A stretch of DNA of 64,000 nt, from contig MEQX01000093.1 of assembly GCA_001770415.1 (NCBI GenBank), positions 1 to 64,000 on the forward strand, written 5' to 3'. The translations under genes and the position numbers were made by a program. Below, in pieces: positions 47,205 through 64,000 of this stretch. A model generated the notes under the pieces. It worked only from the letters and a program-made list of their open reading frames with translations. It was not told where the DNA came from and ran no database searches. This DNA comes from Betaproteobacteria bacterium RIFCSPLOWO2_02_FULL_63_19. GTDB taxonomy: Bacteria > Pseudomonadota > Gammaproteobacteria > Burkholderiales > SG8-39. Positions within the stretch are counted from its first letter, which is position 1, and each line of letters opens with the position of its first letter.

Positions 47205-48908
47205 TCATTCGAGCAGCCATAGCTCACCCCATGCTCCGACGGTAACTCGCCTAGCGCCCGCGTGCAGTCGATGTGCCATTTCCGCATTTTCCTTGCGACC
47301 ATGGCTAATCATGAAAAGGACCTTCCTCGTCAGCGGCGGATAATTGTGCAGCATGTCGATCGTGTAGTAGCCATAGCTCGTGTCGATAAAAGCGACTTGC
47401 GCCATGGACGTATCGGCCAATGGAACCTGGCCAAGGTGCCGTTCGATGAACGCGTTGACCTGCATAACGCGTAATGAGGTAGACAACAGAAGGCTCCCGA
47501 GCGCAAGTGCTCCGACCGCCGCAACGAATCGCCTTCCGCCCGAAGACCTTACCGGAACGCGAACCATGGCGGCTGCTGCCAGCACGGCAAGAACGCCCCA
47601 GGCGGAGTGGAAATATCGGTATCCCCATCCATGGCCCTGGTCAAAGGGGATCAGAAAGTACCCTAGGAACGTCGTAATCGCTGATGCAAGCAGCAACCCG
47701 TACCGCGGATCCGTCCGGGCTTTCAGGAAACCGAACCACGCAAGGATCGGCAGTCCGGGCACTGCCCATACCCAAAGTTTCACCAAGCCGCCAACACGAA
47801 CCAGTACGGTGTGCGCATCCGGGAGGTTCGCGATCTTTCCGATCGCCGCCATCCAGCGTATTGCATAAGGTACAGTCGCCGCAGCGCTGCCCGGTGGCGT
47901 ATGAATCGAGCCAGCACTGCGCAAATCGCCGAGCAATTGCAGCCACCCGACGCCAAGGGCACCCGCGAAAGGTATATAACCGAGTGCCAGCGCCACAAAA
48001 CACCGGAACTCGCGACGAACGAGGAGCCAGACTATCCAGGGCGCCGCATAGAGCATATGAGGTGGCGGGCTGTGCATGACCAGCGCAAACCCACCGACCA
48101 TTCCCGCGGCGAGTGCCTTTCCCGGTGTAGGCCGCAGCAGCAACAGCGTGTAGACCGTACTGAACAGAAGGTTCGCGCTCATCGAATAGTAGGACATCGC
48201 GTTGATCGAGAACGCCGGGGACGCGAGCGCGAAAAGAATCGCCCAGCCTCCGGCTTCCTCGCTGGCGCAGAGCTCGCGCGCCAGCCGGTGCACAGCCACG
48301 AGCGACAATGCCCCGATCGCAGGGTTGGATGCCCACGGGATGCCGAGAAACGTAAAGGGCGTGAGCAGAAGCGCGAATCCGGGCATGAAATAGGAAACCA
48401 CCTCGCCCCCTGGGCGGGACACGATTAGAAACGATTTCTGAAATGGCTTCGCGATGAGCCAATCCAGGAGTTCCACCGGATAGTGGCCTATGAGATGTCC
48501 CGCGGCGAATACTTCGCTCTGAAAACGAACGCTGTACTCGTCCATCGACAGCGGATAATCGTGATAGGCGAATACTGCGCCGACGCAAAAGGCGACGAAT
48601 GCCACGCCAGCGACAATGTTCGGATGATTTCCAATTGCGCGCACCACTGCGATCGTCGGCCCGCTATTCCTTGAAAGAAGCGCCACAGCCAGTAGGCCGA
48701 CGATCAGCAGTGCAGCCCAGTAATCCTGATTGATCAGCAGATTCCAGAAGATTGGCGCCGAGTATGGGTCGTTTACGCCGAGGCGGTGCCGAACTATAAA
48801 GCCCAGACAAAAGACGGAGACGATTACACTGCCGAGAAAGAATGAACGTGAAACATCATTCTCGCTCCCGGGAAACAGGAACTCTCCTACGCTTGTCGCT
48901 TGCCTCAT
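47205..48908 (-). CDS. Polytopic membrane protein, ArnT/PMT-like glycosyltransferase (GT-C fold candidate)
   Basis: Many TM segments; YHDYPLSMDEYSVRFQSEVFAAG (acidic motif in first large loop, GT-C style). Confidence 0.65.
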   Translation of the reverse strand: MRQATSVGEFLFPGSENDVSRSFFLGSVIVSVFCLGFIVRHRLGVNDPYSAPIFWNLLINQDYWAALLIVGLLAVALLSRNSGPTIAVVRAIGNHPNIVAGVAFVAFCVGAVFAYHDYPLSMDEYSVRFQSEVFAAGHLIGHYPVELLDWLIAKPFQKSFLIVSRPGGEVVSYFMPGFALLLTPFTFLGIPWASNPAIGALSLVAVHRLARELCASEEAGGWAILFALASPAFSINAMSYYSMSANLLFSTVYTLLLLRPTPGKALAAGMVGGFALVMHSPPPHMLYAAPWIVWLLVRREFRCFVALALGYIPFAGALGVGWLQLLGDLRSAGSIHTPPGSAAATVPYAIRWMAAIGKIANLPDAHTVLVRVGGLVKLWVWAVPGLPILAWFGFLKARTDPRYGLLLASAITTFLGYFLIPFDQGHGWGYRYFHSAWGVLAVLAAAAMVRVPVRSSGGRRFVAAVGALALGSLLLSTSLRVMQVNAFIERHLGQVPLADTSMAQVAFIDTSYGYYTIDMLHNYPPLTRKVLFMISHGRKENAEMAHRLHAGARRVTVGAWGELWLLE

Positions 48909-49023
48909 ATTAGGTCGTTCCCGCTTCGAATCGGCGGAATCATTAGACAGCCCGCCGAAGGCGCGTACCACTCAACAAGAATCGTCGTTCGGCGCAGAAC
49001 CCTAGGCAGCCCAAGCTGTCGGT

Positions 49024-50439
49024 CTAATAGGCGGCCGGCTGCGTGAAACCGCGCACTACCGTCAAGAAGACAATCTTGAGGTCCAGCCAAATCGACCAGT
49101 TTCGGATGTAGTAGAGGTCGTGCTCGACCCGTTTGCGCATCTTCTCCACGGTGTCGGTTTCACCGCGCCACCCATTCACCTGTGCCCAACCCGTGATGCC
49201 CGGCTTTACTTTATGCCTGAGCATATATCCCGTAACGAGCTTTCGGTATTGTTCATTGTGCGACACCGCGTGTGGTCGCGGACCGACGACCGACATATGC
49301 CCTTGGAGCACGTTGAAAAACTGCGGTAGTTCATCCAGCGAAGTGCGTCTCAGAAAGGCGCCGAAACGCGTTACTCTCGGATCGGCCTTACGCGCCTGCG
49401 GCACGTCCCCGCCGTCCTCGAGAACCTTCATCGTACGGAATTTCCATACTTCGACAACTTTGCCGCTCATTCCGTAACGGTGCTGGACAAATAGCACCGG
49501 GCCACGCGAGGTTAGCTTTATCGCTAATGCGACCAGCAGCATTAAGGGCAACGCGGGTATCAAAATAAGCCCGGCCAGGGCGATGTCTTCAAGTCGCTTG
49601 AGTGAGCCGTCTACGCCCAGAAACGGCGTATCGAATATGCTCACGACTGGCATGCCCTCGATTTCTGTCCAGCGCGCATTCATCATTTCGAACATGAAGA
49701 ATTCGGGCACGAGAAAGACCGACGCGGTGGTGTCGGAAAGCTCCCTGATCAGATCCATGACTCTCCGCTCATTTACAAGTGGCAGCGCGACGTACACGTA
49801 ATCCAAATTGCCTGACCTAGCGCGCTCAACCATGGTCGCAAGGCTTCCCTCGACCCTGTAAGGGTGCCCTGCAAGTGGCTCCACTCCGCGGTGCACATCG
49901 TCATCGTAAAAACCGATCAGATTCAATCCAAGCCATTCAGCGGCCAACACGCGTTCGGCGACGCGGCGCGCAAGATCTCCCGCGCCGGCGATCGCGAGCG
50001 AGCGCATGTTGCGCCCATTCGCTCGGCTTGCGCGCAAGAACAGGCGTATCGCAAACCGAAGTATTACCAGTATGGAAAACGAGAGGCTCCACCAAAGGAT
50101 CATTATGACGCGGGAATAGTGCTCGGAGGTCTTGGTCAGATAAGCAATAGTGACCAGCAGCGCGGCAACGCCAGCACAGACAGCAGCAAGTTCAGCGACC
50201 TCTTGGCGCAACGCGTAGACACGCCAAGATGAATACAAATGTGTCAGCTCGCCAGCGGTCACGAACACAAGCACGGCAAGGACCGCAGCCAGCCAATAAT
50301 ATGGCCCCATCGATTGTGGGTCGTAAAAGGCTACCGCTCCGAACAACGACAAAAAGACCACCGCGGAGTCAAGCAGGCGGTGCAGGAATGCGAACTTGGA
50401 GGCATGGGGTCGGATCAGACCACCAGCATCGGATGCCAT
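49024..50439 (-). CDS. Undecaprenyl-phosphate sugar phosphotransferase (polyprenyl glycosylphosphotransferase, WcaJ-like)
   Basis: N-terminal TMs; KRLEDIALAGLILIPALPLMLLVALAIKLTSRGPVLFVQHRYGMSGKVVEVWKFRTM; RTSLDELPQFFNVLQGHMSVVGPRPH. Confidence 0.95.
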   Translation of the reverse strand: MASDAGGLIRPHASKFAFLHRLLDSAVVFLSLFGAVAFYDPQSMGPYYWLAAVLAVLVFVTAGELTHLYSSWRVYALRQEVAELAAVCAGVAALLVTIAYLTKTSEHYSRVIMILWWSLSFSILVILRFAIRLFLRASRANGRNMRSLAIAGAGDLARRVAERVLAAEWLGLNLIGFYDDDVHRGVEPLAGHPYRVEGSLATMVERARSGNLDYVYVALPLVNERRVMDLIRELSDTTASVFLVPEFFMFEMMNARWTEIEGMPVVSIFDTPFLGVDGSLKRLEDIALAGLILIPALPLMLLVALAIKLTSRGPVLFVQHRYGMSGKVVEVWKFRTMKVLEDGGDVPQARKADPRVTRFGAFLRRTSLDELPQFFNVLQGHMSVVGPRPHAVSHNEQYRKLVTGYMLRHKVKPGITGWAQVNGWRGETDTVEKMRKRVEHDLYYIRNWSIWLDLKIVFLTVVRGFTQPAAY

Positions 50440-50555
50440 TTCTTTATGAACCCTCCGTTGAAAGCGACCCCGTATGCCGCTTGCAAAATGCTAGCATGCC
50501 CATTATTACGGCAAACGAGAACAAATTCCTTAGCTTGATGCGATCGTCGTTCCCG

Positions 50556-51812
50556 CTAGGACTTGGTGAGCCCCTCAAGCTCGCGCACGAATTCACCGAG
50601 GATCGCGCTTCGATTCCACTCCGATTCCGCCCTCGTGCGTCCGGTTGCTCCGAGCTCCAAACGCAACCGCACGTCCCGCGCCAGTTCGATAATTGCGCCG
50701 GCAAACGCGTTCAGGTCACCTGGAGCGACCACCCTGCCACAGGCCTCCAGCGCCAGCGATATCTCAGAATCTGCACTCGCAGTAGCCACAACTGGTCTTC
50801 CGCTGGCAAGCATGCCCGTGAGTTTGGATGGCATTACCAGATCGGCAATACCCGGTCGCTGAGGAAGAAGATGAATATCGGCGAGATTCAAGAGTTGATT
50901 GAGAAGGGAAGCAGGTTGAATTGGCATGAAGCGGACGTTGGCGAGCTCTGACGCCGCCGCCTCGAGTTTCGCCCTCGCAGGTCCATCACCGCATAACACG
51001 AAATCTACCGGCTCGCCTGCCAGAAGCTGCGCCGACTCAATGATGAGTTCGAGACCTTGTTTCGATCCCATCGCTCCCGAGTACAGTGCCACCACGCGGC
51101 CCGCACCAATGCCCAGCCGCTCCCTGAATATACTTGGCTCTCTGGTTGGGTAAATTTCGGCGGTGTCTACCCAGTTGCGCAGAAGCAGCGTGCGTTCCAA
51201 TGCAACGCCCTTCGTCGTCAACCGCTGCCGCATTGCCGATGAAATCGTAGATACCTTGTCAAATCGGCGCAGCAGCGATCCCTCGCAGGCATTGACGATT
51301 GCACGCGGGAAACCTGCTCGAAGCAGCCCCACCGCGAATGCAGCGTCAATTTCGAAGTCCTGAACGTGCAACCACGCAGCAGCAGCAGCGGCCCGAGCGG
51401 TTGCAAGCGCGGCAGGCGCTGATATGAGCGTAGGCGCAATCGCGATAACGACCTGCGGACGCCATGCAATCTGGCAAAGGGCTGCGGGAAGACTTGATGC
51501 CGCGAAAGAAATCAGATGCAGAACCCGGCGAAGGCCTGTCGGCCGTTTCGGAACGTAGATCGGACAGCGCCATATTTCGACCGACTTGCTCGCGACTCGG
51601 GCAATATTCGATGCCGAACGATCGATGAATTCGCGGTGATACCTGAATCGCGACCGTCCCTGCTCGCGCTCCCACCGCGGGTAATACGGCGGGCCCGCGA
51701 TGATCCGAACTTCATGCCCGACCTCGGCAAACCAAGCCGCCATTTCGCCCGTGTACTTACCCACGCCGACCAGTTCCGGCCAGAAGTTGAGACCGACTAT
51801 GAGGATCTTCAT
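50556..51812 (-). CDS. Glycosyltransferase family 4 (WcaI-like)
   Basis: MKILIVGLNFWPELVGVGKYTGEMAAWFAEVGHEVRIIAGPPYYP; VALYSGAMGSKQGLELIIESAQLL. Confidence 0.92.
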   Translation of the reverse strand: MKILIVGLNFWPELVGVGKYTGEMAAWFAEVGHEVRIIAGPPYYPRWEREQGRSRFRYHREFIDRSASNIARVASKSVEIWRCPIYVPKRPTGLRRVLHLISFAASSLPAALCQIAWRPQVVIAIAPTLISAPAALATARAAAAAAWLHVQDFEIDAAFAVGLLRAGFPRAIVNACEGSLLRRFDKVSTISSAMRQRLTTKGVALERTLLLRNWVDTAEIYPTREPSIFRERLGIGAGRVVALYSGAMGSKQGLELIIESAQLLAGEPVDFVLCGDGPARAKLEAAASELANVRFMPIQPASLLNQLLNLADIHLLPQRPGIADLVMPSKLTGMLASGRPVVATASADSEISLALEACGRVVAPGDLNAFAGAIIELARDVRLRLELGATGRTRAESEWNRSAILGEFVRELEGLTKS

Positions 51813-51922
51813 GAAGGTTCGTGCCGACGATGCGCGCTCGTGTGAACTGTTGAGATTACACGCGACTGGTGTTATACGGCGCGCATCGCCGCGGGGTAGA
51901 TGGTACCGAGCCCGCCTGCCAT

Positions 51923-53188
51923 TTAGCCCCTTTCCGCTTCCCGCACGGCAAGTGTATCGTACAGCTCGGTCATCTTCACGATCACCGATTCCCAGGTGAA
52001 CTTCTGTTCCACCAGTTGCAGCGCATTCGTGGCCAGTTCCCTAGCCCGCTCTGGATTCGCAAGAAGCCCGGTGATCGCGTCGGCCGTTTGTTGCACATCG
52101 CACGGAACAACTATGCCCGCACGGACCCCGCTGATTTCCCGCCAGATGTTGACCTTGTCTGAAATGATCACCGGGCACCCGGCGATCATGGCCTCTACGA
52201 CGGCAAGGCCAAAATTTTCCGTATATGAGGGGAGTACGAATACGTCCGCCGCGCAGAGAGCGGACCACTTTTCCTGGTTCCAGAGCATACCCGTGAATGT
52301 TGTTCGTTCGGCCACTCCCTCCTGGATCAACCACCGCCGGACCTGCTCTGCGTATCCCTCGTGGTCCGGGCCTGCAATGACCAGTTCGGCCTCGGGCCGA
52401 ACGCGTGCCACCTTGGCAAAAGCGCGTGCGAGTATGTCCAGTCCTTTCTTGAAGTTGATCCGCCCGAGATAGAGAACGAGTTCTCTACCCCGCAAATGAG
52501 GATACCTGTCCAGAAACTTCTCGCCGCCGTCAGACGCAGCTTTCCCACTATCCAGGCTGAGTCCTTCGGCGATCACAACGTTTCTTGACCGTTGCGTGGG
52601 TTCGGAGCCCTCGCCATACTTCCGATCGGCTTCCGCCACCCTGGATTTCTGCTTCCCGAAAAGCGATGTCCGCAGAGCAAGGTCCCGCTCCTCGTCTGTC
52701 GTAAACTGAATTGCTGCTGCGCCGCATATCGCTGGCCGCTCGAATAGCATTTCGTGAACCGACTTTCGCCAACGCCTCCGGACGAACAAGAACGGGTCCA
52801 GGCTGCCATGCGGCTTAATGATGTACGGAACGCCGAATTTCCTACATAGATGCACCGCGGCGGGAAGATGAAACCGGTAGAGAGAATGGACGTGCACAAC
52901 ATCGCAGGACGGAATATTCGCTTCCAGCGCCCGATACATCATCGGCGATATCCAGTACCAGCGGTACCCCAATACCGGAAAGAACCGAATCTCCACGCCG
53001 TCCCTGACCGTCCGGCCCTCCTGGTCCATATGCCAGTCGTAGGGTGCGTCGATCGTGGTGGTGTAGATGGAAACCTCGAGCCCCGCTTTAGCGAGTTCCC
53101 TGCAGAGATCGAAGCAGGCAATTGGAGCGCCACCGTGCTGGCCCCCGATCGTGGGTATGACGTGCAGGATCCTCCGATTTCGCTTCAT
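51923..53188 (-). CDS. Glycosyltransferase family 4
   Basis: RILHVIPTIGGQHGGAPIACFDLCRELAKAGLEVSIYTT; VLYLGRINFKKGLDILARAFAKV; VLPSYTENFGLAVVEAMIAGCPVI. Confidence 0.92.
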   Translation of the reverse strand: MKRNRRILHVIPTIGGQHGGAPIACFDLCRELAKAGLEVSIYTTTIDAPYDWHMDQEGRTVRDGVEIRFFPVLGYRWYWISPMMYRALEANIPSCDVVHVHSLYRFHLPAAVHLCRKFGVPYIIKPHGSLDPFLFVRRRWRKSVHEMLFERPAICGAAAIQFTTDEERDLALRTSLFGKQKSRVAEADRKYGEGSEPTQRSRNVVIAEGLSLDSGKAASDGGEKFLDRYPHLRGRELVLYLGRINFKKGLDILARAFAKVARVRPEAELVIAGPDHEGYAEQVRRWLIQEGVAERTTFTGMLWNQEKWSALCAADVFVLPSYTENFGLAVVEAMIAGCPVIISDKVNIWREISGVRAGIVVPCDVQQTADAITGLLANPERARELATNALQLVEQKFTWESVIVKMTELYDTLAVREAERG

Positions 53189-53237
53189 TGGGTCTATTTG
53201 CGCCGTTCGCTATCGCTCGGGTCCTTCAACGACGCCC

Positions 53238-54212
53238 CTAGCGGTCCTGCTCACGCATCCAGCGCACGGTGCGCTCGATTCCGTCTTGCAACGAGTAAGG
53301 CAGTTCGCCGACGACTCCCTTGAGCGGCGACATGTCATAGCGGGCGTTCGTGGTTATGTTTCCAAGCCGGTACGTGGTAAGCGGCGGATGCGTGATGCCC
53401 AGGTACCTGGATCCGTCTCCGGCCAGAGCCATGAGGTGCAGAATCGCCATAGGGACCCGGCAAACTCGTCGGGCACCGAAAGCGTCCCGGATGTGGTCCG
53501 CAAAAATCCCAATTTCGACCGCATCGTAATCTGCGACATAGAACATGCGGCGATCAACGAGCGATACCTGCGCCGTCGTTAGGCGATGCAGCTGCACCAC
53601 CGTGTTGCCGACGTATCCGAGCGACTTGAAGACCTCCTTGTTCATCGGGTGAACGTAGACTCCTCGCCTTATGGCCTGGAAGAATTCGCGGAAGGGCGTG
53701 CCAAACCACGGCCCCCAGATAGAGGTTGGACGGACTATTGTCCAATGTCCGACATCGGCCGCACGCTCACGAACCAGTTTCTCCCCTGCGACCTTGCTTT
53801 CCCCGTAATAGGTGTCGGGACGATAGTCGTACTCGTCTTTCGGCGTATACCCAATCGGACACACGAAACGCGTCGAAGCGAATATGATGCGCCTTACGGG
53901 TCTGGGCGCAGCCGCCAACGCCGCTATCAGGTTTACGACGCCAAGCGTGTTGGAATCGTATTCCGCGAGGGACTTCCCGTCGAGATCCGTCCTCGCCGCG
54001 AGATGATAGACAAGATCCGGCTGAGTCCTTTGCATAACGCCCGCCAACGCCTCGCGATCACGTATATCGGTATTGACCCAGCGTGCGCCGAACTGCGGGT
54101 TTCTCGGCGCCGCAATATCGACGTTGTATACATCGTCGCCCAGCGCGCAGTGATATTCCACCACGCTGGTACCGATGAACCCCGAGCCGCCAGTAACAAG
54201 GACCACACTCAC
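53238..54212 (-). CDS. NAD-dependent epimerase/dehydratase
   Basis: MSVVLVTGGSGFIGTSVVEYHCALGDDVYNVD; YYGESKVAGEKLV (YxxxK). Confidence 0.92.
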   Translation of the reverse strand: MSVVLVTGGSGFIGTSVVEYHCALGDDVYNVDIAAPRNPQFGARWVNTDIRDREALAGVMQRTQPDLVYHLAARTDLDGKSLAEYDSNTLGVVNLIAALAAAPRPVRRIIFASTRFVCPIGYTPKDEYDYRPDTYYGESKVAGEKLVRERAADVGHWTIVRPTSIWGPWFGTPFREFFQAIRRGVYVHPMNKEVFKSLGYVGNTVVQLHRLTTAQVSLVDRRMFYVADYDAVEIGIFADHIRDAFGARRVCRVPMAILHLMALAGDGSRYLGITHPPLTTYRLGNITTNARYDMSPLKGVVGELPYSLQDGIERTVRWMREQDR

Positions 54213-54446
54213 TTATGCATCCGAACTATGCTCAACCTATGCTCCTGCGACGCGCGTGTGGCGAACATGTATTTCACCACAAACCGCAGGGCGCGCCCGG
54301 GATTATTCCCTGAATCTACTGCGATTGTCTTAGAATGGCGCGAATGCTTCTTTTCACGTCGCGATACCGGACGCCGCGGATCCGCGGCCCGCGGCGGACA
54401 TAGCCGATCCCCGACCATAAAAAGGGAAGCTGCCTTGCTCGTTCAC

Positions 54447-55187
54447 ATGCTGCAGAAGATGCTCAGCGCCTTTGAGGCACCGACCACCGTCGTTGCGGCG
54501 CTCGCCTGGCCGAAGTTTTCCCTCTCTTCACTGCTGATCGCGACCAGACTCAGACGGCGCGGCATCAGGCCAACCACGATCATAGACGCAGGCGCCAACG
54601 AGGGGCAATTCGCGATCGCGATGGCGCATGTCTTCCCCGATGCGACCATTCATTCGTTCGAACCAGATCCGAAGACCTACCGGCGATTGGCTCGCAACGT
54701 GAGAAGGTACTCTCGCGTGCATACGCACGAACTGGCGCTCGGCGACAGGCGCGGAGAGAGCCAATTCCATGTCAATACCGACGCCCAGGTTAGCTCGCTG
54801 CTACCAGCGTCGGAAGAGCGCAAGCGTGCCTTTCCCAACGCTCGCACCACCGGGACGATCGTCGTCAAAACGGACACCCTGAGCCGGTTCTTCGCCGATC
54901 TGGACGTAGCCCAACCAGTGCTGCTCAAGCTGGATGTACAGGGATATGAGCATCGAATTCTGGAAGGTGCCGGCGGGTTCCTGCCGAAAGTAGACTATGT
55001 CCTGACCGAAACGGCGATCCGCCCGCTTTACGTCGGAGAGGTCCCCTGCGGACACATGACGGGAATTCTGGAAAATCTCGGCTTTTCGCTCGATCTGGTC
55101 GCCGACTGGCATCACTCGCCGCGTGATGGAACGGTCATTGAACTTGATCTTCTCTTTGCTCGCGGATCGGACCGGGAGCCTCGGTAG
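54447..55187 (+). CDS. FkbM family methyltransferase
   Basis: TTIIDAGANEGQFAIAMAHVFPDATIHSFEPDPKTYRRL; LLKLDVQGYEHRILEGA; internal start chosen. Confidence 0.88.
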   Translation: MLQKMLSAFEAPTTVVAALAWPKFSLSSLLIATRLRRRGIRPTTIIDAGANEGQFAIAMAHVFPDATIHSFEPDPKTYRRLARNVRRYSRVHTHELALGDRRGESQFHVNTDAQVSSLLPASEERKRAFPNARTTGTIVVKTDTLSRFFADLDVAQPVLLKLDVQGYEHRILEGAGGFLPKVDYVLTETAIRPLYVGEVPCGHMTGILENLGFSLDLVADWHHSPRDGTVIELDLLFARGSDREPR

Positions 55188-55298
55188 TAATCAGCCATGG
55201 TAGGCGGTCCAAACTGCCGGATTCCGGAAACCACGACGCTCCCCGACACCTGCGAACCGTCTCGCCTGTTGCGCTCGGGCTTTCGCGCACGATCGCTG

Positions 55299-56108
55299 CT
55301 ACTCTCCTCGGAATCGCCCGTATATAGGTCCATGCAGCAGGCGTTCCTTGAATCCACGCCAGTTTCGCAGATGCTTAACGACCCGTACCGCACCAATCCA
55401 GGTCCAGTCCGCAGTCGAGGGCTCACGTCCAAATTGCTCCTTGAATCGCCACTTAAAGTACTTGCGAGTAGCCGCATCCAAGCGCGCGCCGCCGGTGATT
55501 GTTCCTTCATGAATGCGGTAAGCGCTTAGGAACCGGTCAAGCAGCGAAAATCGGGCCCCACTCCTGTGCATCTGGAAGAACAGCTCCCCGTCCCAGGCAA
55601 CATTGTTTTGCGGATTAAACCCACCCACTTTATGGAATGTCTCCGCCCGAAAAAACGTGGAAGGCTGCATCAGGACGGCCGCGCCCAGGGCATCCATTCG
55701 AGCGGAATACGGATCAGAGTAGCTGCGTCTGAGCACGCGGTTCGCCCCGTCGACGATCATTGCGTGACCTGATACGACGTCGACGTCTCCGTGCGACTCC
55801 AGGTAGTCCTGGACAATACGCAAGGCATGCGGGAGCAGGTAGTCATCGGAATTGAGAAACCCGAAAACGTCTCCGGTCGCGCAGGCAAACCCCTTGTTGA
55901 GACCGTCCGCCGGCCCGCAGTCCGTTTCCAGAACGATATGCGCCAGTCTCTCCGAGAAGCGTGCGATCACGGAGCGACTGCCGTCCGACGAGCCAGGGTC
56001 CACGACGATATACTCCAGATCGACGTCACTCTGGTCGATCACGGACCGCAGCGCTTGCTCCAGGTACTTCACCTGGTTGAACGAGATCGTGACGATCGAA
56101 AATCTCAT
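55299..56108 (-). CDS. Glycosyltransferase family 2
   Basis: MRFSIVTISFNQVKYLEQALRSVIDQSDVDLEYIVVDPGSSDGSRSVI; FGFLNSDDYLLP. Confidence 0.94.
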   Translation of the reverse strand: MRFSIVTISFNQVKYLEQALRSVIDQSDVDLEYIVVDPGSSDGSRSVIARFSERLAHIVLETDCGPADGLNKGFACATGDVFGFLNSDDYLLPHALRIVQDYLESHGDVDVVSGHAMIVDGANRVLRRSYSDPYSARMDALGAAVLMQPSTFFRAETFHKVGGFNPQNNVAWDGELFFQMHRSGARFSLLDRFLSAYRIHEGTITGGARLDAATRKYFKWRFKEQFGREPSTADWTWIGAVRVVKHLRNWRGFKERLLHGPIYGRFRGE

Positions 56109-56227: not shown

Positions 56228-56962
56228 ATGAAAGACCATATTGTTCATACGTTTAAGCGGCTGCTCGCGCGTTCAGGGCTGGAACTCAACCGGCTGGACT
56301 CCAGCAACAGCGAACGTGCCCTGGCATGGCGGCTGATCAGCGCGAGCGCGGCCGATCTGGTCGTTGATGTGGGCGCCAACGAAGGGCAATACGCGCTAGC
56401 ACTGCTTTCCATCAGGAATGACCTGCGTATTGTATCGTTTGAGCCGTTGTCAACGGCTCGTGGAGCCTTGCTCGAAAGATCCCGACGATACGAGAACTGG
56501 ACGGTGGCCGAACGAATGGCGCTCGGGTCCGCCAAGGGGTCCGCATGGTTATTCGTCTCCGCGAATTCGCTGTCGTCATCGCTGCTTCCAATGCGGCCCG
56601 AGCATGTGCGCGCTGCCCCGGAAAGCGCTTACGTAAGGCAAGAGTCGACACCTCTCGAACGATTGGATGACATCGCCGGCCGCTACTGGAGTCCGTCTGA
56701 CAGGCTGATGCTGAAGATCGATGCCCAAGGCTATGAAGCCGACGTGTTGGCCGGGGCGCGGGGCATTTTGAATCAGGTGACGGGCATCCAGACCGAAATA
56801 TCGTTTGTCACGTTGTACGAAACCCAGATGCTCGCCTACGACGTCATTAGGCAGATTGAGGAACTGGGATTCACGCTGTTTGCCATCAACAGCGATTTCA
56901 GGGATCCCCATTCGCATGCGCTTCTTCAGGCCAATGCCTTCTTCGTAAGAACCGCCGGTTAG
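56228..56962 (+). CDS. FkbM family methyltransferase
   Basis: DLVVDVGANEGQYALALLSIRNDLRIVSFEPL; RLMLKIDAQGYEADVLAGARGIL. Confidence 0.88.
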   Translation: MKDHIVHTFKRLLARSGLELNRLDSSNSERALAWRLISASAADLVVDVGANEGQYALALLSIRNDLRIVSFEPLSTARGALLERSRRYENWTVAERMALGSAKGSAWLFVSANSLSSSLLPMRPEHVRAAPESAYVRQESTPLERLDDIAGRYWSPSDRLMLKIDAQGYEADVLAGARGILNQVTGIQTEISFVTLYETQMLAYDVIRQIEELGFTLFAINSDFRDPHSHALLQANAFFVRTAG

Positions 56963-57149: not shown

Positions 57150-58130
57150 CTACGACTCCGGCAGTGAGGAAACGTGTTCCGACTGCGGCGAAAAATAGCT
57201 CGCGTACGACGCCCTTGGATAGGCATCGAGAAGCCCTCCCTCCGTCGCGTTGACAATGCGAACGCCGAGCGATTCGGCCTTGCTTCTGATCAGGCGATGG
57301 CTCTCAAACTCCCGCCGGATAATATTGAGAAACCCTTCGTAACCAATTCCTCGGCCGTCCTTGGCAATACTGTCGAACTCGGGAAATTGTTCATGCTTGT
57401 CATAGAAGTGATAGCTTGCACCGGTATCTGCGAGCCAATTGCAATCGAAACCGATCAGGCAGATCTCCTTGAAACCGAGGTAGACCGCAAGCGGAATAGC
57501 GATGGCGCTGCCCGTCGTCATACCGATGTTTCTCGGTCTGCAGAAATCGAAATCCACCAGAGCGGCCCGCCGAGTCTGAAACCCGGCGCGGGCGTAGTAG
57601 ACACTTCTACCGGTATACAGCCGATACTTTGCAACGAGTGGGCGCGCAAGTTCATGAATTACCAGCGACGTATTCGGCAGCTCGCGCTCGATGGTCCTGT
57701 GCCACTCGACCGAGCGGGACTCGTCTAACATGAAGTGCGGATCGAAGATACAGAGAAACTTGAGCCCGATCGACGCGGCGTGCGGGTGCTTGTAAAAGCT
57801 ATTCGCCCCTATTGTGAATTCGTTCGCGAGCGACCGCAGATCCATCGCCTTGAGCGAGGGACCGTTGCCAATAACGAAGCACCGTCTATGATTCGAAAAA
57901 CGGTTCTTCAGCGGTCGCATTTCGGGGTCCCCGGAACCAAACAGCCTTCTCCAGGCGTCGCCGGCAATATCGCGCGTATTGGGCCCAACGACCCAATCGG
58001 CCGTCTCAAGTATGACCTTCTTGACGGAGGTCATCTTTCCTCTCCCACTATTGCGTTCAGGTGACAAAATCGGATCAGGAATTTCCTGACATGTGACCTC
58101 CATTCGGCATCCGCTGTCAGGCAAATGCAC
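57150..58130 (-). CDS. DUF115 (6-HMP/Maf)-like or GT42-like putative nonulosonate transferase
   Basis: RRCFVIGNGPSLKAMDLRSLANEFTIGANSFYK and GMTTGSAIAIPLAVYLGFKEICLIGFDCNW; start may be 58038 (MTSVKKV). Confidence 0.65.
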   Translation of the reverse strand: MHLPDSGCRMEVTCQEIPDPILSPERNSGRGKMTSVKKVILETADWVVGPNTRDIAGDAWRRLFGSGDPEMRPLKNRFSNHRRCFVIGNGPSLKAMDLRSLANEFTIGANSFYKHPHAASIGLKFLCIFDPHFMLDESRSVEWHRTIERELPNTSLVIHELARPLVAKYRLYTGRSVYYARAGFQTRRAALVDFDFCRPRNIGMTTGSAIAIPLAVYLGFKEICLIGFDCNWLADTGASYHFYDKHEQFPEFDSIAKDGRGIGYEGFLNIIRREFESHRLIRSKAESLGVRIVNATEGGLLDAYPRASYASYFSPQSEHVSSLPES

Positions 58131-58201: not shown

Positions 58202-58999
58202 TTACCTGTCTGGCTCTCGCGCTTGCGCGTCGGACAAACGACGTGGCTGCCAGACCATGAAATCCGCCGCGCTGGCGAAGGCTCCTGCATTCGCGCGAAG
58301 CGTATCCAGACTCAGCTCCCACCATCGCGACGCGAGGAGTTGCGCGACCACTGCCTCGTCGAACCGATGACGAACCACTTTTGCGGGCACGCCGCCTACG
58401 ATCGCGTATGGTGGAACGGATCCGGCGACCACGGCACCGGCGGCGACGATTGCGCCATCGCCGATCGACGCCCCATCGAGGATGATTGCTCTAGCACCGA
58501 TCCAGACATCGTTCCCGATACGTATACTCTGGAACTCTTCGAATTTTTGTTCATCAACGAAAGATACCTGCGACTGTTTAAGCGTCGAATAAAACGCAGG
58601 GTGCGAGCTGACGAAAGCTTCCGCCGGATGGCGTCCTAGCCCGATAAGGCACTCGGGCCCAACGCACGTGAACTTGCCTATCGTCGCGTTCATGATCCTG
58701 CTGCCATGCGATACATAACTCATATCGCCGATCTCTACATCTTCCATATAGACGTGGTCGTAGAGCGTATTGAAACGCCCGAACCTGGATCGTTTCGCAG
58801 TTGCCATGTAGCCAATCCTGAGATGGCTTCCGAAGCACCGAAACTTTAATGCCAATGTTCTCACCAGCCAGGCGATCCAAACCGTGAGCGGGTTCTTCAG
58901 CAGCATCTCATGGGCTCGCATAATCCCGCCTACGTATTTCGCCATTCGCGCCGCAACTAGAATTCGCCTTTGGCGCATCAAAAAGGTGACTTGCGTCAA
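58202..58999 (-). CDS. CatB-like hexapeptide-repeat O-acetyltransferase
   Basis: SIRIGNDVWIGARAIILDGASIGDGAIVAAGAVVAGSVPPYAIVGGVPAKVVRHRF, left-handed beta-helix acyltransferase; start uncertain. Confidence 0.9.
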   Translation of the reverse strand: MTQVTFLMRQRRILVAARMAKYVGGIMRAHEMLLKNPLTVWIAWLVRTLALKFRCFGSHLRIGYMATAKRSRFGRFNTLYDHVYMEDVEIGDMSYVSHGSRIMNATIGKFTCVGPECLIGLGRHPAEAFVSSHPAFYSTLKQSQVSFVDEQKFEEFQSIRIGNDVWIGARAIILDGASIGDGAIVAAGAVVAGSVPPYAIVGGVPAKVVRHRFDEAVVAQLLASRWWELSLDTLRANAGAFASAADFMVWQPRRLSDAQAREPDR

Positions 59000-59060: not shown

Positions 59061-60233
59061 TTACAGTTTCTCGAGAAATTCGATTCTGTTCCGCCATTTC
59101 ACGATGTGTGGCATCGAAGACGAGTGAAGGTACTCGTATAAGGATTCCCCTTCGAGTGCCGACTGAAGGATCGCCAGATACTCCTCGCCTTCGACGCCGC
59201 GCTCGCTCCGCCGTATCGTAAAATCTACGGTCACGGCGCTTTCGGGGGTTGACTTGAGCGATACCACGGGCGACCGCTTCTCGATTGCTGACAGGATGTC
59301 CGAGTTAATGATCATCAGCCAATGGCCAATCTGTTCCTGACTGAGCCGGTCCAGACGTTCCTCAATCGACTGCATGCGGTTTAGAAATCCAAGCATGCGG
59401 AATTCCTTCATCCAGGCGGAAAAAGAGTGCACAGGATAGCTATGATATTGGTGCTCCTCCAATTGGCTGCTCCGAAGAAATACCAGCGACAGATCCCCGA
59501 TGTGCGCACGATTTATTCCCAGCATCTCGTTTCTCAGCCAGTATGACTCTCTGGCCAGTCCGTCCGGCAACAAAAGCACGCTCTCGCCGTCCCGCCACGA
59601 GAACACCACGTCATTCGCCGCTGCCTGGATGCCCTCATTCCACCCGGAAGTGTCGAACATCTGCAATGCGTGAAGGTACCCATCAGTCAGACTTCCCTCG
59701 ACCGGAATGCAGTTCAGCCCGACGCCGAACAGTCCGCGCAGACAGTACGGCCTCGTCGGAAGCCGTTTCCTAATTTCGGACGAGAATCGGGCCGCGTTGA
59801 TGAATACGCCTGCCACCTCGTGCTTGTTCAGATGGACAATCTGCTCGTTCATCAGCATGAACTCCGGCGGCAGGAAGTACCGGCGGACATTTCGGAATTC
59901 GCGCGTGATGGCCTTTTCGCCGTATTCGAAGTTCAAGCGGAACCCGTCCTGGCTGCGCAACAGGGCGACGTCGTGGGCGAAGGGACGCAGGATGACCTCG
60001 AAGATGTCCGGATTCCGGTTTATGAGCTGGATCGCCTCAGGGTTGTGCTGCGCAACGTCGGCAACCGTTGCGCCGGTAAGACCGAGAACCATGCGCTTGT
60101 TCAGGTCGACATAGAGTTGCAGCCACTGCGACAGGATGGAACGGCGTCCCCCTTGCAGGGCCTTTATCCAGTTCTTGCTCGGCAAGCAAGAGGCGTCGGC
60201 GTTGAAATTCACCACATCGACAAGCTGCTTCAT
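59061..60233 (-). CDS. Uncharacterised protein; possible GH57/deacetylase-type barrel
   Basis: VDVVNFNADASCLPSKNWIKALQGG...MVLGLTGATVADVAQHNPEAIQLINRNPDIFEVILRPFAHDVALL...YFLPPEFMLMNEQIVHLNKHEVAGVFI; ATGA overlap with upstream gene. Confidence 0.5.
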   Translation of the reverse strand: MKQLVDVVNFNADASCLPSKNWIKALQGGRRSILSQWLQLYVDLNKRMVLGLTGATVADVAQHNPEAIQLINRNPDIFEVILRPFAHDVALLRSQDGFRLNFEYGEKAITREFRNVRRYFLPPEFMLMNEQIVHLNKHEVAGVFINAARFSSEIRKRLPTRPYCLRGLFGVGLNCIPVEGSLTDGYLHALQMFDTSGWNEGIQAAANDVVFSWRDGESVLLLPDGLARESYWLRNEMLGINRAHIGDLSLVFLRSSQLEEHQYHSYPVHSFSAWMKEFRMLGFLNRMQSIEERLDRLSQEQIGHWLMIINSDILSAIEKRSPVVSLKSTPESAVTVDFTIRRSERGVEGEEYLAILQSALEGESLYEYLHSSSMPHIVKWRNRIEFLEKL

Positions 60234-61273
60234 GCGAGCAACGCGCCTTGAAATTCTCGGTTGAGTTCCAGAAATTCTGAGTACTGCGCATCGTGTATCG
60301 GAATTCCCTCGTTTGTGCGCCGAGCCAGACTGATCTTCTCCGGGTCTCCGGCCACCATAACCGCTCCGCCGTCGCTCAGCGGCGGCATCGACCGTACGCG
60401 ATCCACGACCGCCTGCAAGTTCTTGCGGAAAACTGCCGGTTCAACGAAGCGGGAAATATCCAGCGCTGCAAAGAAGTGGCTCACGCGCCGTTTGTTGCTG
60501 CCGAGCGGCAGGGTGTACATCGGCGGGATATCCTTGCCAATCGGCCCGCCCGCGAGGATTGCGCACAGGACCTCGACCATCATGCCCAGTCCATACCCCT
60601 TGTATCCGCCGGCAGGATTCAGACTCGTCGCCTTGCCGGGGTCGGTCACGCTGTGCCCGTCCGCATCAAAGCCCCAGTGCTCAGGAATGTTCCGCTTTTC
60701 GCGACGGAAGTTGTTTATCCGGTTCCAGGACACGAGCGAAGTCGCCATGTCCAGACAGTATGGTCCTTCATCGTGAAGTGGCGCAGTGAAACAGATCGGG
60801 TTCGTACCAAAGAAGGCCTCTTTGGCACCAAACGCCTTGACCAGGGCGTCGGCATTGGTAAATGCAAATCCCAGGAAATCGCACTCGGCGGCCATCAGAC
60901 CGAAATACGCGGCCGCCGCAAAGTGGGTCGAATTCCTCACGCTCGCGGCGCCCATGCCGCTTTGCCTGGCAAGGGCCATGGCTTCCTCCATCGCGACAGC
61001 GCCGGCGTGGTGCCCGAAGGCGTGGTCCGCATCGACCATGGCGGTCGATGCGCCGCCGCGGGAAACGTGAATATTCGGTCGAGGGTTTACCCTTCCGGCG
61101 ACTACGCCCCGGCAATAATGCGGAAAAAGATTGATGCCGTGGGAATCGACCCCGCGCAGGGATGTCTGGATAAGAGACGCAACTACGTGACGCGCAGAAT
61201 CCGATGTGACGTTCTGCCTGGCCAACTCGTTGGCCATTAGCTCGGAAAGCTTTGCTGCATCAAACCGGATCAC
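60230..61273 (-). CDS. Ldh family (malate/L-lactate/ureidoglycolate-type) oxidoreductase
   Basis: GVDSHGINLFPHYCRGVVAGRVNPRPNI; SVRNSTHFAAAAYFGLMA; GYKGYGLGMMVEVLCAILAGGP; GTG start. Confidence 0.92.
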   Translation of the reverse strand: MIRFDAAKLSELMANELARQNVTSDSARHVVASLIQTSLRGVDSHGINLFPHYCRGVVAGRVNPRPNIHVSRGGASTAMVDADHAFGHHAGAVAMEEAMALARQSGMGAASVRNSTHFAAAAYFGLMAAECDFLGFAFTNADALVKAFGAKEAFFGTNPICFTAPLHDEGPYCLDMATSLVSWNRINNFRREKRNIPEHWGFDADGHSVTDPGKATSLNPAGGYKGYGLGMMVEVLCAILAGGPIGKDIPPMYTLPLGSNKRRVSHFFAALDISRFVEPAVFRKNLQAVVDRVRSMPPLSDGGAVMVAGDPEKISLARRTNEGIPIHDAQYSEFLELNREFQGALLA

Positions 61274-62435
61274 GCATGTCCTTCCACGAGGAATTCTCCG
61301 CCAGGCTCTGGTTCACGGCGTCCACGACCGCCGTGGATACCAGCGCCTCACGCATCGTGGGCCGGTTGCCCCTAAGCTCAGCGGCGTCAACCCGCCGTGA
61401 GACGACGTCGAAAACGTCGCGAACGAACTGGTCGATGCTCTCGTGGCCGTAGCCGCGAAATGCAAGTTGTCCGTCCACGTCAGGGAGGTAATCCGAAAAA
61501 TAGGGGTTGATCTGCTGTATTCCGAGATCTTCGTGCACTACTTCGAGGCCCCGGTTCTTCTGGTCGCACTGAATCCTGCCGCGCGTGCCAATCACGCTGA
61601 ATTTCTGGTCCGACATCGCGCTGCTGCAGGCCGGATCGATCCAGTTGACGGAAATCTGCGAAACGAACCGGTCCGCTTTGTCCGCCGGGTTCTGCCAGAT
61701 TACGGTGGCGTGAACCGAGTCCCAGGTGTCGATCCCGTGCCGACGAAGCGTGCCTTCCGTGCCGACGGCCATGGCCCGGATGGGCACGCAACGCGTAAGA
61801 AACCAGATCAGGTCCACATAATGCACGCCAAGATATTGGAAGATATTCGTCCGGCTCGACCAGCTGCGAAACGTGGTCCATGGAATCGTGATTCTCTGGC
61901 TGTACTCCACGGTGAAATAGAGCAGCTTGCCGAGTGTTCGACTTTCCAACTCTCGACGCACCCAAAGATTGGTCGCATCCCATCGCTTGTGGAACTCCAC
62001 TACGCCGTAAAGCCCGTTTTCAGCGCGGATGCGCTCGAGCTCTCTGGCTTCAGCCAACGTCGGTGTTAGCGGCTTGACCACCAGGCAATGCATCGCCTGC
62101 CGCAGAATCGCCCGAGCGTAGGCGAAATGCAGGTGATCGGGTACTGAGACTATCGCGCAGTCATAGCGGGCGTCACTGCACAGCGCGGCTATTTCATCGT
62201 CCACCGTGCGTGCGATGGCGCGATAGCGCACCTTCAGGTCCGATCCAATCGTCGCATTAATTCGCGCCGCGGCCGCGTCGACCGTCGCAGCGTTAGCGGG
62301 GCTGGTGGCGACAACCGTGACCTCTTCGATGGGCAAGGCCTTCGATGTCTGCGCTAACGACGAAAGCACCGTCCCTGGACCCGTCCCGTCCCTTCCGGTT
62401 ACATACATGCCCGCCCCGATGACAAGTACCTTCAT
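61260..62435 (-). CDS. Gfo/Idh/MocA family oxidoreductase
   Basis: MKVLVIGAGMYVTGRDGTGPGTVLSSL; DCAIVSVPDHLHFAYARAILRQAMHCLVVKPLTPTLAEARELERI. Confidence 0.88.
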   Translation of the reverse strand: MKVLVIGAGMYVTGRDGTGPGTVLSSLAQTSKALPIEEVTVVATSPANAATVDAAAARINATIGSDLKVRYRAIARTVDDEIAALCSDARYDCAIVSVPDHLHFAYARAILRQAMHCLVVKPLTPTLAEARELERIRAENGLYGVVEFHKRWDATNLWVRRELESRTLGKLLYFTVEYSQRITIPWTTFRSWSSRTNIFQYLGVHYVDLIWFLTRCVPIRAMAVGTEGTLRRHGIDTWDSVHATVIWQNPADKADRFVSQISVNWIDPACSSAMSDQKFSVIGTRGRIQCDQKNRGLEVVHEDLGIQQINPYFSDYLPDVDGQLAFRGYGHESIDQFVRDVFDVVSRRVDAAELRGNRPTMREALVSTAVVDAVNQSLAENSSWKDMRDPV

Positions 62436-63160
62436 GCCTTGCCTCCAAACAGGCATTCAGCAATCCGCAAATCGCGCGGCGTATCGATGTCTATGACATC
62501 GTCCGGATTCATGACATACGGCAGGATAAAATCACCTGTCATCGATTTCTTGCGGAATATCGTCACCGGACGGGTCACGTCGATGACGCAATTGTAATAA
62601 TAGACTTGAGGCAGATCCTGACGCCTTAGCAGATACGGAACCGGGTTTTCACCCTTCATGATGGGGTCCAGAAATCCATCCCGATCGATGTAGAACATCC
62701 GATAGGGATGCTTGTCAGGCTGCGAGACGGAGCGCACCGAGTCGGCGTCGGGACGATTCTGGAGCAGAGTGATGCATTCGTCGATCCACTCGGACTTGCG
62801 ATACGGCGCGGTCGGACGAAGATGCACGACCAGGTCGGGGCGATAACTTTCCTGCTCTTCCAGGAAACGCAATGCGTGTTCGAAAACCGGAAGATCTAGA
62901 ACATGATCCTCAGCGAGCTCTGGCGGGCGCAAAAACGGAAGCTCGGCACCGCAGTCCAATGCAACGCGCCGAATTTCCTCGTCATCCGTGGATACGATCA
63001 CGCGGTTGACGAGCCGCGCCTGCGAGGCATGAACGATCGAGTGCGCCACGAGAGTCTTGCCGTTGAACTGCAGGAGGTTCTTGCGCTTGATTCCCTTCGA
63101 ACCTCCTCGCGCGGGAATGATCGCGAGCACCTTTGGAGGGGCGACCCGGCCGGAACTCAT
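62432..63160 (-). CDS. Acylneuraminate cytidylyltransferase family protein (CMP-NulO synthetase-like)
   Basis: VLAIIPARGGSKGIKRKNLLQFNGKTLVAHSI; VIVSTDDEEIRRVALDCGAELPFLRP; HLRPTAPYRKSEWIDECI; DIDTPRDLRIAE. Confidence 0.93.
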   Translation of the reverse strand: MSSGRVAPPKVLAIIPARGGSKGIKRKNLLQFNGKTLVAHSIVHASQARLVNRVIVSTDDEEIRRVALDCGAELPFLRPPELAEDHVLDLPVFEHALRFLEEQESYRPDLVVHLRPTAPYRKSEWIDECITLLQNRPDADSVRSVSQPDKHPYRMFYIDRDGFLDPIMKGENPVPYLLRRQDLPQVYYYNCVIDVTRPVTIFRKKSMTGDFILPYVMNPDDVIDIDTPRDLRIAECLFGGKA

Positions 63161-63984
63161 TTAACAGCCTCTGTATAAAGCGACACGAATTTGCGCCCCT
63201 CGTCGTCCTTGTCGAGAAACAGTTCACTGCATTGCCCCTGCATGAACCCCGCGCGCTTCACCTGGCCGAATCCGCTGTTGGTGACATAGATGCTCAGCGT
63301 CTCAAAGTCCCAGGCGGAAACATGGCCGTATTCCTGCGTCACAAAACTGACAGCCTGCATAGGAGAAACTAGCCGACGGGATGCGCGCGCTGCATCGGCG
63401 CTCTGAATAAACATGAGCGTTTCCCAGCGCTCGAACCAACCGTTATCCCCTTCGCTGTAGTGTTGAACGAACAACGAAACGTCGGGCACGATCACCCTTA
63501 GGACGCTACCGGGTTTCATGACGCGGTAACACTCGCCCAGCAGGCGGCTGACTTCGGCATAGGTCAGATGTTCAAGGACATGCTCGCAGAATATACCGTC
63601 CACTGTGCCGTCGCTGATCTTCAGCGGACGCCGGAGATCGGCGCCATAGTCGATTCCGGGCGTGCCGAAGAAGTCGATGTTGGTGTACCCCTTCCTGCAA
63701 TGGGGACCACTACCCAGGTTGACATAGTTCCTGGTTTGGCGATCGAGAACCAAAGGAAATGCAAGTAGGTTACCCAGAAAGGCGCGCATCTCGAATACGA
63801 TGACGCTAAAAGCCGGATCCGGCAAGAAGAAGAACAGCGCTCTCAGCGCGCGTTTTACCGGACGCATCACGCTGACGGCACCGACACCGTGAATTCCAAA
63901 GTCAATGTTTGACGACCTCGTAAGCAGGTCGGTGGTCTCCATCCTCGTACAAGAACATCGCCGCCAACCCATTTCCCTTGTCAC
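63157..63984 (-). CDS. Class I SAM-dependent methyltransferase
   Basis: NYVNLGSGPHCRKGYTNIDFFG; VDGIFCEHVLEHLTYAEVSRLLGECYRVMKPGSVLRVIVPD; start may be 63867. Confidence 0.85.
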   Translation of the reverse strand: MTREMGWRRCSCTRMETTDLLTRSSNIDFGIHGVGAVSVMRPVKRALRALFFFLPDPAFSVIVFEMRAFLGNLLAFPLVLDRQTRNYVNLGSGPHCRKGYTNIDFFGTPGIDYGADLRRPLKISDGTVDGIFCEHVLEHLTYAEVSRLLGECYRVMKPGSVLRVIVPDVSLFVQHYSEGDNGWFERWETLMFIQSADAARASRRLVSPMQAVSFVTQEYGHVSAWDFETLSIYVTNSGFGQVKRAGFMQGQCSELFLDKDDEGRKFVSLYTEAVK

Positions 63985-64000
63985 CGCGACGGAATTTTAC

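Follow-up and report, generated by a model that had tools for sequence, protein, structure and literature searches.

How does a locus obtain a CMP-activated sugar acid if it encodes a NeuA-like activating enzyme and no synthase? The characterised CMP-activated sugar acids known to us are all built by a PEP-condensing synthase, either NeuB or KdsA. The question arises at one end of the window (the whole 64,000-nucleotide stretch of DNA analysed here), where the original prediction placed a five-gene cassette for a modified nonulosonic-type sugar. The features on which the argument draws are as follows.

63157–63867, minus strand: class I methyltransferase, accessory (Pfam Methyltransf_11, 6e-8), with homologues only in L005 and L006; listed among the open reading frames in a longer form, 63157–63984, with a GTG start at 63984
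62432–63160, minus strand: NeuA-like cytidylyltransferase (CTPT), 242 aa, cassette gene 1 (CTP_transf_3, 1.6e-19)
61260–62435, minus strand: Gfo/Idh-type NAD(P) oxidoreductase, 391 aa, cassette gene 2 (GFO_IDH_MocA, 1.4e-11)
60230–61273, minus strand: Ldh_2-type 2-hydroxyacid/2-oxoacid oxidoreductase, 347 aa, cassette gene 3 (Ldh_2, 5e-105)
59061–60233, minus strand: U5, a GH57-like (beta/alpha)7-barrel protein, 390 aa, cassette gene 4
58202–58999, minus strand: hexapeptide acyltransferase, accessory (Pfam Hexapep, 2.9e-13)
57150–58130, minus strand: putative CMP-sugar glycosyltransferase, GT42/CstII-like and MptE-like (PF01973, 1.7e-9)
49024–56108, minus strand: surface-glycan genes around the cassette, including two GT4-type glycosyltransferases
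55299–56108, minus strand: GT2
53238–54212, minus strand: SDR
49024–50439, minus strand: bacterial sugar transferase with a CoA-binding domain

The predicted layout of five minus-strand genes agrees with the sequence throughout, including three ATGA overlaps (63157–63160, 62432–62435 and 60230–60233) and, at the junction of Gfo/Idh and Ldh_2, a 14-nt overlap with a GTG start (61260–61273). The part that did not stand concerns the methyltransferase. The alignment to its homologues in L005 and L006 begins only at about residue 53, and these proteins start at a point that corresponds to an internal ATG at 63867, so the form beginning with GTG is probably too long and the ATG is probably the true start. 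Moreover, the gene adjoins the cassette in only three of the six genomes that carry it (the window, L005 and L006), and the core therefore consists of four genes. Two FkbM-type methyltransferases (54399–55184 and 56228–56962) lie on the plus strand of this otherwise minus-strand glycan locus, and a 588-aa protein at 47205–48971, which no Pfam family matches, weakly resembles the LA_3751/LA_3752 family of putative glycosyltransferases in NCBIfam.

With U5 as the query, a scan of GTDB contigs recovered five relatives, each 48–49% identical, in Bacteroidota MAGs (L005, L006 and L007), a Gammaproteobacteria MAG (L008) and an Anaerolineae MAG (L009). The order CTPT–Gfo/Idh–Ldh_2–U5 is common to the window and all five of these genomes, distant phyla included. 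The four genes lie in this order on single contigs in L005, L006, L008 and L009; L007 starts within Ldh_2, and its other cassette genes are found on contig G301:C88 (L060), the end of which runs into L007 through a 330-base overlap (96% identity). The overlap of the CTPT and Gfo/Idh genes is retained in L006, L008, L009 and L060. In L005, a gene for a 120-aa four-helix-bundle-like protein (2507–2869) is inserted between these two. Across the six cassettes, matrices of pairwise identity for the four proteins show correlations of 0.91–0.99, as expected under joint inheritance. Synteny and parallel divergence thus bear out the earlier reading of the gene coupling as the sign of a single unit, whose four core families do occur together. 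The Anaerolineae assignment of L009 may reflect misbinning or a recent transfer, because L008 and L009 share 72–87% DNA identity and one accession series. The unit is also rare: a search of 299 genomes of the window's order found no further U5, and no further cassette-type Gfo/Idh (E<=1e-40) turned up among 399 genomes of the window's phylum and 396 of the phylum of L006, a sample of about 790. Among plasmids and phages, U5 had no match and the window's Gfo/Idh gave distant partial matches only. Horizontal spread of the four genes as a unit forms part of the explanation that we tentatively prefer; literature searches returned no description of such a cassette.

The CTPT bears on the kind of product. 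It is 66–75% identical to its copies in the five other cassettes, and it matches the CMP-Neu5Ac synthetase of PDB 6ifd (2e-32). The ARGGSKG signature, the DID acid pair and the Arg that binds the sugar carboxylate (RRQD) are retained, the last being invariant among the cassette enzymes. In the phylogeny, the cassette sequences form one clade (support 100/98) on the NeuA/PseF side of the tree, from which KdsB is split off at 100/100, in keeping with the proposed acylneuraminate-type assignment. In the sugar site, alignment places R115 and D194 where NeuA has Gln and Tyr, which we take to be residues of the sialic acid site in the Neisseria enzyme; these substitutions suggest that the substrate is a different sugar acid. 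R115 (in HLRPT) was considered as a marker of CTPTs that work without NeuB and was rejected, since the NeuB-linked CTPT on contig C47 of G303, a long branch within the same wider clade as the cassette enzymes and their relatives in L059 and L033, also carries it.

Two genes downstream of the cassette lies the CstII-like gene, the sole PF01973 gene in the genome. Its product matches the C. jejuni alpha-2,3/8-sialyltransferase 1ro8 (1.4e-4) over a region that includes GNGPSL, and scores 16.4 bits (0.0064) against Pfam CST-I, below the cut-off of 25. PF01973 homologues adjoin the cassette in L005 and L006 too, the L006 copy being the only one found in that genome. The presence of this single-copy GT42-like transferase makes a CMP-sugar the probable product of the cassette, and it backs the earlier proposal of a CMP-activated acidic sugar. 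In L007–L009, U5 is followed by a different protein, which in L009 weakly matches DUF6716, a putative glycosyltransferase family; a DUF6716 protein in Maritalea sits within a sialic acid cluster, and the predicted model of the L007–L009 protein is poor (pLDDT 55). Taken as a whole, the cassette likely makes some CMP-activated surface sugar. The CstII-like enzyme alone does not fix which one, because Neu5Ac and Kdo are both accepted by transferases of the Maf type (PMC11339370), another group that works with CMP-NulO donors.

Modified nonulosonate and modified Kdo are the main rival products, and the search for a synthase bears on both. The original prediction proposed extending the contig upstream to look for a NeuB/KdsA-type synthase, an epimerase and an aminotransferase. 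None was found in the 20 kb past the window edge, which encode a Wzx-type flippase (contig positions 63997–65376), a 631-aa membrane protein, two pilins and a TPR glycosyltransferase-like protein; a synthase just beyond the edge is therefore ruled out. The pilin genes, at about 67884–69700 of the contig (L003:4884–6700), are near-identical tandem type IV genes upstream of the glycan locus. Genome searches likewise found no NeuB in the window's genome (G000), where one could have been missed because the assembly is 92% complete, and none in G299. Each of these two genomes encodes two CTP_transf_3 proteins, one KdsB-type and the other the cassette CTPT. NeuB genes are present in the remaining four cassette genomes (G300–G303), never on the cassette loci. 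The cassette might accordingly be imagined to decorate a true nonulosonic acid made by a NeuB-type synthase encoded elsewhere, as was first proposed; the four NeuB-bearing genomes, the sialyltransferase-type partners and the NCBIfam model that fits the CTPT best (PseF, TIGR03584, at 149.7 bits under a cut-off of 205.7) are in its favour. We consider this quite unlikely, given that G000 and G299 have no NeuB and that several of the NeuB clusters in G300–G303 carry CTPTs of their own. The 'nonulosonic' label is on this evidence not upheld.

KdsA scored over its cut-off in G000, G300, G301 and G302, and KdsB-type proteins occur in five of the cassette genomes. These observations would suit a diversion of Kdo, in which free Kdo from KdsA/D/C is the substrate that Gfo/Idh, Ldh_2 and U5 alter and the CTPT activates the resulting derivative as an additional synthetase of the CMP-Kdo type; in G000, moreover, no NeuB is available to supply another 2-keto sugar acid. 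Synthesis of 8-amino-Kdo sets a precedent for a dedicated CMP-Kdo-type synthetase that acts on a Kdo derivative. That system (KdnA/KdnB with a dedicated KdsB) shares with the cassette the combination of a dedicated cytidylyltransferase and a redox enzyme that modifies a sugar acid, but it employs a KdsB-type CTPT, an Fe-ADH and an aminotransferase, where the cassette has a NeuA-type CTPT, Gfo/Idh and Ldh_2. Diversion of Kdo is nonetheless unlikely: the CTPT falls clearly outside KdsB in the tree, canonical action of Ldh_2 on C2 of Kdo would remove the very group that the CTPT needs, KdsA did not exceed its cut-off in G299, and G303 has neither KdsA nor KdsB, although its cassette contig may be misbinned.

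The two dehydrogenases suggest another source for the acid. Ldh_2 enzymes convert 2-hydroxy acids to 2-keto acids and back, and the residues common to solved members (S44-H45-G46 and H117) are invariant in the cassette copies. The 2-keto acid that such an enzyme makes or uses is the group that a NeuA-type CTPT requires. Among Gfo/Idh enzymes, oxidation of sugars at C1 is common. The cassette copies share invariant K121-P122 and GVH205YVD motifs; their glycine loop is unusual (GAGMYVTGRDGTG), with KP and H205 kept. We know of no assayed member of these cassette subfamilies.

The fourth protein, U5, has a GH57-like fold. Four of the six homologues match Pfam GH57 (best 1.7e-7), and in whole-genome searches those of G299 and G300 exceed the cut-off; the window copy is below it and matches no Pfam family. 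Its AlphaFold model (pLDDT 67, moderate quality) is nearest to the GH57 4-alpha-glucanotransferase 1k1x (E 7e-7). Motif 2 (E79..P..H87) and motif 3 (PPE124F) line up with the GH57 encoded in the same genome in one of two alignment modes, and E124, invariant in all copies, likewise falls on the WPAE of a pair of GH57 proteins in one mode of the two. An hhalign comparison of U5 with that resident GH57 gave no useful alignment. By eye, WRD215GES resembles motif 4. U5 differs from GH57 in being short, in being encoded within a CMP-sugar operon and in motif 1, where by inspection all six copies have NADAS instead of HxHQP (His-x-His-Gln-Pro), placing Asn/Asp at the position of the first His-x-His.

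Because Ldh_2 enzymes can yield 2-keto acids, Gfo/Idh enzymes can act at C1 and no synthase is encoded with the cassette, we favour, tentatively, an oxidative, NeuB-free route in which the four genes would supply a surface glycan with a CMP-activated ulosonic acid, a sugar acid of the 2-keto type. The NeuB/KdsA-type condensation would give way to the oxidation of a ready-made sugar. The route that we infer, in its order of steps, redox directions, substrate, product and the part given to U5, would run as follows. U5, as a GH57-like hydrolase, may release the sugar or open a lactone; Gfo/Idh would oxidise the sugar to an acid at the aldonate level, with C1 as the probable site; Ldh_2 would oxidise the alpha-hydroxyl to give a 2-keto acid that closes to the hemiketal; and CTPT would couple this acid to CMP for use by the GT42-like transferase (window, L005 and L006) or the DUF6716-like protein (L007–L009). 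The fuller version, a synthase-free sequence that leads from an aldose through an aldonate and a 2-keto acid to the CMP-sugar, with a recruited GH57-like enzyme and a sugar new to bacterial glycans, is more doubtful, perhaps one case in three.

Related clusters were counted in support of the oxidative route. The sister sequences of the cassette CTPTs, which join their clade at 96/98, come from a Bacteroidota MAG (L059:7052–10808), where the gene is grouped with an AP_endonuc_2 TIM barrel and two SDRs, and from an Azospirillum thermophilum plasmid (L033:11971–19502), where it lies near a radical SAM protein, an AP_endonuc_2-like barrel and SDRs; the SDRs number two or three across these clusters. 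No NeuB stands beside the CTPT in either, though L033 has one about 12 kb away, and the two appear to represent a further type of CMP-sugar cluster without a synthase. Like the cassette, these clusters combine redox enzymes with a CTPT of this lineage, but with SDRs and the AP_endonuc_2 barrel instead of Gfo/Idh, Ldh_2 and U5. On a viral contig (L038:2747–4625), which also encodes large repetitive structural proteins, a CTP_transf_3 gene is immediately followed by a gene for a distant Gfo/Idh, 30% identical over its full length. Counted against the oxidative route were the NeuB genes in four of the six cassette genomes, the chance of a missed NeuB in G000, the altered motif 1 of U5 and the moderate quality of its model, the proximity of the G303 C47 CTPT to NeuB and the more distant NeuB of L033. 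The viral pair, which comes without Ldh_2 and U5, would also fit a CTPT that activates a sugar other than a 2-keto acid (for example, a sugar or polyol phosphate), with the redox enzymes and U5 acting on the precursor or on the finished CMP/CDP-sugar. The R115/D194 substitutions and the missing synthase are compatible with such a substrate, but the invariant carboxylate-binding Arg and the resemblance of the neighbouring transferase to CMP-sialic-type enzymes render it improbable.

Gene content sets the cassette apart from established systems. With neuABC, pse and leg clusters it has in common a NeuA/PseF-family cytidylyltransferase, a surface-glycan locus and a nearby CstII-like transferase; it differs from them in having no NeuB, NeuC, PseB/C/G/H or aminotransferase and in having Gfo/Idh, Ldh_2 and a GH57-like protein. 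To our knowledge its gene set matches no neu, pse or leg cluster, as had been anticipated. If the oxidative reading is correct, a NeuA-type activator that works alongside a pair of dehydrogenases, where no synthase is encoded, would break the rule of the PEP-condensing synthase and would point to a new class of acidic surface sugar, and surveys that use neuB as a marker would miss the bacteria that carry the cassette.
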